From Desulfomonilaceae bacterium (lineage in GTDB: Bacteria; Desulfobacterota; Desulfomonilia; Desulfomonilales; Desulfomonilaceae), in the NCBI GenBank assembly GCA_031082285.1, contig JAVHLK010000019.1, positions 1 to 64,000 of the forward strand: 64,000 nt of DNA, read 5' to 3'. The position numbers and the translations under genes are program-made. Positions 48,892 through 52,020 of this stretch are shown here, in pieces (within the stretch, counting starts at the first letter, position 1; the number at the start of each line of letters is the position of its first letter). The notes under the pieces were generated by a model that ran no database searches, was not told where the DNA came from, and saw only the letters and a list, made by a program, of their open reading frames with translations.

Positions 48892-50058
48892 ATGTCTTAC
48901 ATGGAACTATTCGTGACCATCATGTGCGCGAGCTGGGACTTCTTCCGTGAGGCTTCCATATACTTGCTGCTTGGCTTTCTCATGGCCGGCATTATCAGAG
49001 TGTACCTGACCCCCGATTCGGTTGCCCATTACTTTCGTCATGGAAGGTTTTCCTCAGTCCTCTATGCGTCATTACTGGGGATTCCCATACCTCTCTGATC
49101 GTGCGGCGTCATCCCCGCAGTTACGGGTCTCAAGAAGCAGGGAGCAAACAACGGCGCGTGTCTATCGTTTCTCATTTCCACGCCGGAGAGCGGTGTGGAT
49201 TCCATAGCACTGACATACTCCCTGCTGGACCCGATCATGACGGTCATCCGACCGATTACCGGATTCGTCACGGCTTTGTCTGCCGGAATCACTCAAAATT
49301 TCGTGTCAAAAGCGCCTGATGACCCTCAAGACGGAGTGCCCGATCGAACTTGTCCGGTGGACGGCTGTTGCGACGGCGTCGATTGCGACCCGGCTGAACA
49401 CCGCCGGCACCACTCGTTCGGAGAAAAGCTCCGCGCGGGCAGTCGGTTCGCGATGAACGAGCTTCTCGAGGACTTGGCGACATGGTTTCTCATCGGAGTC
49501 ATACTCGCCGGGACTATTTCCGCTCTTGTTCCCGACTGGTTTATCGCTCACTCACTTGGATCGGGGTTTCTCGCGTACCTTGCCATGCTGGTCGCGGGGC
49601 TGCCCATGTACGTGTGCGCCACCATGTCCACCCCCATTGCCGCCGCGCTTATCGTAAAGGGATTGAGTCCGGGCGCGGCGCTGGTGTTCCTCGTTGCAGG
49701 ACCGGCAACCAATGTTGCGACAATCACCATGGTCGGCGGATTGCTGGGAAGGAGGACCCTCGGGATTTATCTGGCCTCCATCGTGATTTGCACGTTACTC
49801 ATGGCTTTTGTCACCGATGCGGTCTATACTGCCGCCGGAGTTTCGGCCGGAGCCCAAGTGGGAGCCGCATCCGGCGAGCTGGTTCCGTACTGGCTCGAGA
49901 TTGCCGCGGCCGGCGTGTTGGCGCTACTGATCGCTCGCGTCTACTGGAACGGGATTCGCAGACGACTGTCGGAGTCGGTTCAGAAGCAAGACTCCGATGA
50001 TGGGCTTGAATCCGCTTCCGCATGTGGGTGCGGGCACGAACCCCCGGGTGACGGCTGA
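48892..50058 (+). CDS. SO_0444-type metal permease, predicted selenoprotein (in-frame UGA)
   Basis: Predicted inner-membrane permease of the SO_0444/ArsP-related (PF03773) group, associated with Cu/Zn or oxyanion efflux. A single in-frame TGA at 49096-49098 separates 68 N-terminal codons from 319 downstream codons in the same frame with no other stop. The junction reads LLGIPIPL-(UGA)-SCGVIPAVTGLKKQGA, where family members have P-L-C-S-C-G-V, so the UGA replaces the first conserved Cys and probably encodes selenocysteine (position 69). Later FLISTPESGVDSIALTYSLL and LPMYVCATMSTPIAAALIVK confirm the family. A Cys/His-rich cytoplasmic loop and a CGCGHEPPG tail could bind metal. Possible starts are ATG 48892 or 48901. 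The alternative is a nonsense-mutated pseudogene. Confidence 0.85.
49102..49130 (+). promoter_or_regulatory. Candidate bacterial SECIS element
   Basis: Just after the in-frame UGA, CCCG (49114-49117) and CGGG (49124-49127) form a 4-bp stem around the loop CAGTTA, which contains the GU expected in bSECIS loops, about 16-19 bases after the UGA. A competing 5-bp stem TGCGG/CCGCA (49102-49106 and 49115-49119) lies closer. Not folded by computer. Confidence 0.4.
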
Positions 50059-50246
50059 CGGGCCGATCGCTCCCCGTGAGGGAGCGCGCGGTTGACCGCG
50101 GAAATCCTTTTACCGTGGGATGAGCAAGGTGATCGTGAGCGGTCCGCGACGGGGTGCCGAGCGGTTCCTGCCGAGATCTCGATGAAAAAATCCAGAGGGT
50201 GCAGCGAGTTCTTGTTTGAATCCTGAAATGTCTGGCTGCGCGGACC

Positions 50247-50325
50247 CAAAATCCCCCCTGCCCCCCTTTGCTAAAGGGGGGGTGAAGCCGGTTCCCCCTT
50301 AGAAAAAGGGGGTTAGGGGGATTTG
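50247..50325. repeat. Dispersed CCCCC/GGGGG repeat
   Basis: Tandem inverted elements AAATCCCCCCTGCCCCCCTT and AAAAAGGGGGTTAGGGGGAT flank TTGCTAAAGGGGGGGT and GGTTCCCCCTT. On the minus strand it encodes the familiar NPPNPLFLRGNRLHPPFSKG pattern of a widespread repeat. It fills the space between the permease and the radical SAM gene. Confidence 0.78.
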
Positions 50326-50391
50326 CCGGCTCCAGATTCACCCAAGACGGAAGAGCGCGGCACCCAAATCCAGGGAGGTTGCTTGAAAGAG

Positions 50392-52020
50392 ATGTGTGCC
50401 GTTACGGGCGGTCACCTGAATCGACACGTGGTATTGATCCATCCGCCCGCCATAAGCAAGCGATACCTCAAGACAAAATTCATGCCTTACGGCATGTCGG
50501 TGCTCTATTCATTTCTCAGGGAACACGGCGTTGCCTTAGAGCAACACGATTTCCTCATGGAATACCTCTTCCGGGCAGATGAGGACATAGATTATCACAA
50601 TCCCGAGAAGACGTTTTCGGAACGGGATTTCTTTTCCTTCCTTGACGGTTCGGCATCGAGTCAGGACTTGGAGGCGTTCACCGCGAAGTACGGGAATCGT
50701 ATCCGTCCAGATGCGCAAATCTATGCATTCTCCATTGTTGCGTACCATCAGTTCTGGGCAAGCCTCCTCCTGGCTCGGCATCTGCGGTCGATCAATCCCG
50801 GTTCGGTCATCGTGTTCGGAGGGCCCTTCATCACCATCAAGCCCTCCCGTTCTTACGTGATGTACGGTCAGGCGGATTACTGGATCAAGGGAAGCGGCGA
50901 GATTCCGCTCTTGATGCTCCATCGCATGATGTGCGGCGACCGGAGGATATCCGTCGAGCAGATTCCAGGTCTTGTCGCGGTCGACGGCAACCGGCTTCAA
51001 GAGTTCGGGGTTGCACGCTTGCCCGCGGAACAGGAGCGCATGCCGGATTTCCACGGACTCGCACTGGAACCCTACCGGTACAATCATCCCGTGAGCGGTA
51101 CGCACACCCTGTTTCTCCCGTACCGCGTGTCGAAAGGGTGCCCGTCGAGGTGCAGCTTTTGCACCGGGCGACTGGTTGACCGATACGATCACAAGTCAGT
51201 GGAGAAGATCGTCAACGAAGTGAAGGCGCTCGCCGAGAAATACGGCACCCACACGTTTCAGTTCGCGGATGCGTCGATAAACGGGAATCCCGGCCGTCTC
51301 GCCGAAGTATGTGACAGGCTCGCTCAGGAGTTCCCCGAAATCAGGTGGTACTCGTATGCCAAGGTGAACGGCTTCACCCGGGAACTGCTTTCAAAAGTCA
51401 AGAATGCAGGGTGTTTTGCTCTGTTCTGGGGAGTGGAGTCCGCCTATCAGCCCACGATAAGACTCCTCGGCAAGCGATTCGATGTTGAGAACTTGTACGC
51501 ACTGATTGACCATTCAGGTACCGTGGGCATCAAGAGCTACATTCACCTTATCTACAATACCCCCCACGAATCCGAGCACGACGTGAGAGCCCTGACCGGG
51601 CTCATTGAACGATATATCGACTCCGACCACGTGGTGTTTCTTCCCCAGCGGTTCCTGCTGGAGGCGCACTCCCTGATGTACGAACATCCCGACCGATACG
51701 GTCTTTCCAACATACGCAAAGTCGAGGCAGGCGTGTTCGAAAGGGAGCAATTCCTCTACGATGAAACATCGGGCCTGACGAGTGAGGACGTGAGAAAACG
51801 GAACGAGCGACACAGGGCCATGCTCGCGGATCATCTCGAATGGATTCGATATCGCAACATGGTGAACGGTTCATCCGGAGGTTGGATTTCACGGCTGCCC
51901 CCCAAGCTCCTCGTGCGGTCGGGAAAGCTGGCCCGGCGTTCCGGCCTGGCCCGGAAGGTGCACGAAGGACTGGTGGGATGGATCCAGGCTCGTTCCCCGG
52001 ACATTCGCGAACAATTGTGA
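50392..52020 (+). CDS. B12-binding-type radical SAM enzyme
   Basis: 542-residue protein of the COG1032 class: an N-terminal Rossmann (cobalamin-type) region beginning HVVLIHPPAISKRYLKTKFM and AQIYAFSIVAYHQFWASLLL with VIVFGGPF, then the radical SAM core with YRVSKGCPSRCSFCTGRLVD (C-x3-C-x2-C), FQFADASINGNPGRLAEVCD and ALFWGVESAYQPTIRLLG. The D-x-H-x-x-G base-off motif for B12 is not obvious, so B12 binding is inferred from family order only. A TTG at 50383, 4 bases after GGGAGG, is an alternative start. Substrate unknown; a methylation or ring modification is possible. Confidence 0.85.
   Translation: MCAVTGGHLNRHVVLIHPPAISKRYLKTKFMPYGMSVLYSFLREHGVALEQHDFLMEYLFRADEDIDYHNPEKTFSERDFFSFLDGSASSQDLEAFTAKYGNRIRPDAQIYAFSIVAYHQFWASLLLARHLRSINPGSVIVFGGPFITIKPSRSYVMYGQADYWIKGSGEIPLLMLHRMMCGDRRISVEQIPGLVAVDGNRLQEFGVARLPAEQERMPDFHGLALEPYRYNHPVSGTHTLFLPYRVSKGCPSRCSFCTGRLVDRYDHKSVEKIVNEVKALAEKYGTHTFQFADASINGNPGRLAEVCDRLAQEFPEIRWYSYAKVNGFTRELLSKVKNAGCFALFWGVESAYQPTIRLLGKRFDVENLYALIDHSGTVGIKSYIHLIYNTPHESEHDVRALTGLIERYIDSDHVVFLPQRFLLEAHSLMYEHPDRYGLSNIRKVEAGVFEREQFLYDETSGLTSEDVRKRNERHRAMLADHLEWIRYRNMVNGSSGGWISRLPPKLLVRSGKLARRSGLARKVHEGLVGWIQARSPDIREQL

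Follow-up and report, generated by a model that had tools for sequence, protein, structure and literature searches.

The window, a stretch of 64,000 nucleotides of bacterial DNA, carries the gene of an SO_0444-family permease that, in our best explanation, is a selenoprotein: selenocysteine (Sec) occupies residue 69 in place of an otherwise invariant cysteine, a second Sec probably lies at the annotated stop codon, and we infer a function in metal efflux. We are confident of this explanation as a whole, and its parts are graded separately below. The reading frame 48892–50058 opens with ATG, is interrupted by one internal TGA (49096–49098) and ends with TGA at 50056–50058; across 1.17 kb it contains no further stop or frameshift. 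Around the internal TGA the sequence reads ...GIPIPL-U-SCGVIPA.... When read through, the permease scores 389 bits against NF033936 (cut-off 300) over the full length of the model (profile positions 2–350 of 351) and 154 bits against PF03773, the ArsP_1 family, which confirms the original prediction that one TGA breaks an otherwise open frame of an SO_0444/PF03773 permease. The SaoE model NF040736 also matches with 180 bits, far under its cut-off of 325, and the window permease is therefore not a SaoE. In an alignment of 57 homologues the P-L-[CU]-S-C-G motif and a cysteine of the second half are invariant (C69(U), C71 and C242). One Cys-form permease (L141) carries C-C-C at the site instead of U-S-C. 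The other PF03773 gene of this genome, L001 on contig C73, lacks the TGA and is only distantly paralogous to the permease gene of the window, which no metal-resistance operon surrounds. The coordinates of all features are collected in Table 1.

Table 1. Features of the permease gene, with window coordinates, strand and the evidence on which each assignment rests
Feature	Coordinates	Strand	Basis
SO_0444-family (NF033936) permease gene, frame through both UGA codons	48892..50079	+	Profile scores; extension argued from terminal hairpin evidence
UGA read as Sec69, aligned with otherwise invariant Cys	49096..49098	+	24 TGA / 98 TGC or TGT in 122 homologues
Cys71 codon, second Cys of the U-S-C motif, invariant	49102..49104	+	Homologue alignment
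Sec69 SECIS hairpin CCCG-CAGUUA-CGGG, weakened copy	49114..49127	+	Clade covariation, fold, energy
Cytosolic Cys/His-rich loop TCPVDGCCDGVDCDPAEHRRHH, presumed metal-binding	49348..49413	+	Near-invariant C154, C159, C160, H170, H174
Cys242 codon, invariant; internal-repeat counterpart of Sec69	49615..49617	+	Profile alignment of halves
Terminal UGA, probable second Sec codon (residue 389), then RADRSP	50056..50058	+	Hairpin, clade and family comparison
SECIS-like hairpin CGCUCCC-CGUGA-GGGAGCG	50068..50086	+	Clade conservation/covariation, fold, selD spacing
Next in-frame stop (TGA), probable true translation end	50077..50079	+	Reading frame

Homologues were gathered by searches of the window's taxonomic family, class and phylum and from named genomes, and 122 of them bear the motif. 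At the column of the internal UGA, where the original prediction had proposed a comparison of homologues, these carry TGA in 24 cases and a Cys codon in 98 (TGC 48, TGT 50); artefacts of the C-terminal tail aside, no in-frame TGA was found elsewhere in them. Nine other species of the window's taxonomic family have TGA at the same codon. On a maximum-likelihood tree of the permeases, in which the Sec residue was masked, we counted eight changes between Sec and Cys, at least five of them on well-supported branches. Sec appears to predate Cys within the window's family, where the Cys forms (L008, L011 and L018) make up a nested group. A comparison of the window gene with its Sec relatives gave a pN/pS of ~0.25/0.74 3′ of the UGA and similar values 5′ of it; the part past the UGA is thus under purifying selection and therefore translated. 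As for selA/B/C, whose absence from the genome the original prediction had named as evidence against itself, the outcome was the opposite: selA, selB, selD (with a TGA of its own) and one tRNA-Sec with the anticodon tca are all encoded. SelB was found in 18/18 genomes of the window's family, those with Cys forms included, and tRNA-Sec in 16/18. With SelB also in 69 of 75 other genomes sampled, its presence is nearly universal and for that reason cannot separate Sec from Cys forms. Genomes G011 and G012 each contain two SelB-like genes, one of them more divergent, and on contig C38 of G012 a second tRNA-Sec-like gene lies near the second SelB.

The Sec relatives share a hairpin of the form CCCGC-AGUU-GCGGG, 17–33 nt past the UGA. 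In ten sequences 95% of the cells are paired and two of the six pairs have changed on both sides, a signal that is abolished when the pairing partners are slid against each other as a control. The copy in the window is weaker. Its loop-closing pair, C-G in all nine Sec relatives, is unpaired in the window only (C49118/A49123); the underlying change from GCG to ACG replaces Ala by Thr. This leaves a stem of 4 bp with a 6-nt loop and a folding energy of −5.7 kcal/mol versus −8.1 to −12.5 kcal/mol in the Sec relatives. The loop G falls within the first two positions in 9/9 Sec relatives of the window's family and is the third base in the window copy, a departure from the usual pattern. The UGA plus 40 nt folds no better than shuffled sequences and a 61-nt segment at this site gives no signal (z 0.38), the informative part being the local hairpin only; an Rfam search found no SECIS family either here or at the terminal UGA. 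The window hairpin may act less efficiently as a SECIS or be drifting, or it may contain a base error, and this is the main caveat on Sec69. A SECIS-like hairpin is also retained after Cys69 in the Cys forms L008–L010. The exchange of TGA and Cys codons at one column, the selection on both sides of the UGA, the Sec machinery and the covarying SECIS of the relatives uphold the proposal of Sec at the first Cys of P-L-C-S-C-G: the UGA is very probably decoded as Sec69 by SelB and tRNA-Sec via the nearby downstream hairpin.

The codon that closes the originally predicted frame is also a TGA, and it is followed by a hairpin of its own. This hairpin has a perfect 7-bp stem; its loop, with a G within the first two positions, begins 19 nt past the U of the terminal UGA, and the fold reaches a z of −2.2. 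In this genome the selD gene has a SECIS, a hairpin read by eye, with its loop at about 20, which is nearly the same spacing. Comparing the window gene with four relatives of equal spacing, we found CCCCGUGAGGG (11 nt) to be 96% identical between flanks of 27–29% identity, a contrast matched by 0 of 2000 shuffles. In the same five sequences and two further relatives three of the five stem pairs have changed on both sides. The YCCCCGTGAGGGR pattern is not a repeat, as it occurs a single time in the 5.6-Mb genome. End codons follow the Sec/Cys state within the window's taxonomic family: TGA in 10/10 Sec forms and TAG in 5/5 Cys forms. The latter (L008, L009, L010, L011 and L018), nested in the Sec clade, jointly lack Sec69, the terminal TGA and the terminal hairpin. 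L014–L016, the three Sec forms that diverge most within the family, end in TGA without the hairpin, and only 3 bp of it are left in L006, which belongs to the same clade as the window. A phylogenetically independent pairs test on the terminal hairpin was one-directional with a median p of 0.125 and is underpowered. Because 50056–50058 is a TGA with a SECIS-like hairpin after it, the coding frame probably reaches 50079; of the frame first proposed for this gene the reading holds and the end codon probably does not. The permease would then comprise 395 residues if both UGA codons specify Sec, with 388 residues before the terminal one. We consider it fairly probable that this UGA encodes a second Sec served by its own hairpin and that the protein ends in ...CGCGHEPPGDG-U-RADRSP. 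For the window gene the case, which on balance we favour, is built on the hairpin with its spacing and covariation, and on the joint absence with Sec69 in Cys forms.

In order to place the terminal UGA in the wider permease family we used 160 non-redundant permease ends (97 TGA-, 36 TAA- and 27 TAG-ended) and a fixed description of the hairpin: at least 5 bp, a loop of 4–6 nt with G in the first two positions, and a loop start 18–24 nt after the stop. Such hairpins follow 33/97 TGA-ended permeases, 0/36 TAA-ended and 0/27 TAG-ended ones (TGA versus TAA/TAG, 0/63, p = 5e-9), and 7/190 TGA-ended unrelated genes at the same loci (versus permeases p = 1e-11); both p-values are optimistic because the counts take in related sequences. 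In held-out homologues, for which the hairpin prediction had been fixed beforehand, the hairpin was present in 9/29 after TGA versus 0/20 after TAA/TAG (p = 0.005). Cys at the second codon past the stop occurs in 25/97 TGA permeases, 2/63 TAA/TAG permeases and 4/190 unrelated TGA genes; this had been predicted beforehand as well, and in the held-out set alone it was not significant (2/29 versus 0/20). Many homologues of other orders have a C-x4-U-x-C tail that spans the terminal TGA, with both Cys codons in use, for example CASPG-U-GCSS, CAAPS-U-KCS, CSGAT-U-GCSSGPVGP, CSEKT-U-GC and CAKDT-U-GCSDGPVGS. We read the annotated stop in these genes as often being a Sec codon a few residues before the true end. 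This terminal Sec would be independent of Sec69, since many of the proteins that bear the tail have Cys at residue 69.

It is possible, although we doubt it, that Sec69 alone is real, the terminal UGA being an ordinary stop and the hairpin a 3′ structure of the mRNA such as a terminator, a stability element or a regulatory element. Hairpins at 3′ ends are common, the short tail of the window protein shows no sequence conservation among its relatives, and the U-x-C motif of other orders is missing from this tail (RADRSP) and from the window clade. However, hairpins with this spacing were found after TGA only and never after TAA or TAG in the 160 permeases, and position and spacing match the selD SECIS; no T-run follows the hairpin, and in other orders the C-x4-U-x-C peptide is conserved across the same UGA.

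A further site came to light in the cytosolic Cys/His-rich loop. Five held-out homologues contain a TGA in this loop with an equally spaced hairpin after it, and the second half of the permease is intact in each. The context is PGCG-U-P in L166, L172, L173 and L175; in L160, where position 69 is a TGA as well, it is DAST-U-ADNHCSCG. This loop TGA is a probable third Sec site of the permease family. Judged from sequence comparison, many family members annotated as Cys-only permeases are then reasonably likely to be C-terminal selenoproteins, the window protein a double selenoprotein, and the family one that places Sec at up to three metal-handling positions (intramembrane, cytosolic loop and C-terminal tail), each with its own SECIS.

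What Sec69 may do is suggested by the architecture of the protein. Its two halves are homologous: a profile alignment sets residue 69 on residue 242 with an E-value of 2.2e-13, versus 0.22 for the reversed control. In an AlphaFold model computed with Cys at position 69 (mean pLDDT 86.5) the helix breaks exactly at 69 and at 242. Since Sec69 matches Cys242 and both lie at breaks of membrane helices, the transport path probably contains a single metal or metalloid site that these two residues line together with Cys71. A sequence search found no solved structure, and we make no claim about the fold because Foldseek matches were weak (best E 0.04; elevator-type carriers with a probability of 0.8–0.96 and a TM of about 0.35). 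SO_0444 of Shewanella oneidensis, the namesake to which we liken the window gene by family and description, is required under Zn and Cu stress (PMC3219624), and a relative is induced by Cd and Cu (PMC10092412). SO_0444 lies in an operon with the ZntR-like regulator SO_0443, whereas the window gene has no such adjoining regulator. The window product is likely an SO_0444-family efflux permease of the inner membrane, with soft metals as its putative substrates. The Cys/His loop and the C-terminal tail with its Cys and Sec residues would bind metal in the cytosol and pass it on to the intramembrane site, an arrangement that suits an exporter of soft metals. A selenolate would increase the affinity for soft ions (Cu+, Cd2+, Hg2+ or As/Sb) or speed up their exchange.

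A different substrate is conceivable, if rather unlikely: the selenoprotein could carry a metalloid or an organometal, as do ArsP and SaoE permeases, with the product of the adjacent B12-binding radical-SAM gene making or modifying it. PF03773 is the ArsP_1 family, and SaoE, which belongs to the same PF03773 superfamily and whose sao partners include selenoproteins, gives a match to the window permease. The radical-SAM gene (50323–52020) lies just 3′ of the permease gene in the same orientation in four of the six genomes examined (the window's own, G013, G011 and G017). However, the SaoE score stays far below its threshold, the radical-SAM protein matches many B12 radical-SAM models and passes no NCBIfam cut-off, and the best-characterised homologue responds to Cu and Zn (PMC3219624). 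Between the two genes, at 50250–50330, lies a C-rich/G-rich inverted repeat, noticed by eye, that resembles an interspersed repeat.

We regard it as very unlikely that the gene is a pseudogene or that the internal TGA is a mutated or misread TGC/TGT. The assembly consists of 314 contigs and one SECIS pair is damaged in the window copy, but the shared TGA in nine other species of the family, the purifying selection after the UGA and the intact 1.17-kb frame argue against decay or error. A genome-wide reassignment of UGA, for example to Trp or Gly, would account for an in-frame TGA inside a conserved gene but is barely credible, given that TGA is the commonest stop of neighbouring genes in the window and related loci (190/415), that the genome has a complete Sec machinery, that the homologous column holds Cys rather than Trp or Gly, and that a scan of the window yielded no other convincing read-through gene, that is, none with one domain spanning a TGA.

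A Sec69-type selenoprotein in NF033936 is already known, which answers a question left open by the original prediction: the selenoprotein table of a 2026 review lists an ‘SO_0444 family Cu/Zn efflux transporter’ (NF033936, UxC, one Sec, WP_014809615.1, GenBank annotated; PMC13188914). The proposal of Sec69 was thus right but not new. Desulfomonile is the name on the records from which close relatives of the window gene were taken. The accession WP_014809615.1 presumably falls in the range of Desulfomonile tiedjei. The listed protein and the window protein share the family, the U-x-C motif and Sec at the first Cys; they differ in that the listed form has one Sec, whereas for the window we propose a second, C-terminal one at the annotated stop. 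No description of a C-terminal Sec in the SO_0444 family was found in the open-access literature searched. The UXX-star and KCU-star families (PMC13188914) likewise have a near-terminal UGA, which annotation can mistake for the stop, and a few residues after it. However, they are unrelated proteins, whereas here the tail is that of a polytopic permease in which an intramembrane Sec is also possible.

The new part is the probable C-terminal Sec together with the use of Sec at several sites in the SO_0444 family; Sec69 itself bears out a transporter selenoprotein that is listed but has been little studied, and it documents repeated exchange of Sec and Cys. If the terminal Sec is true, annotation pipelines truncate these proteins at a stop-like Sec codon, and counts fall short for the selenoproteome of prokaryotes as well as for the metal-binding tails of SO_0444-type pumps. 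With selenium at several sites of a single efflux pump, there would also be a direct handle on the contribution of the selenolate to soft-metal transport.
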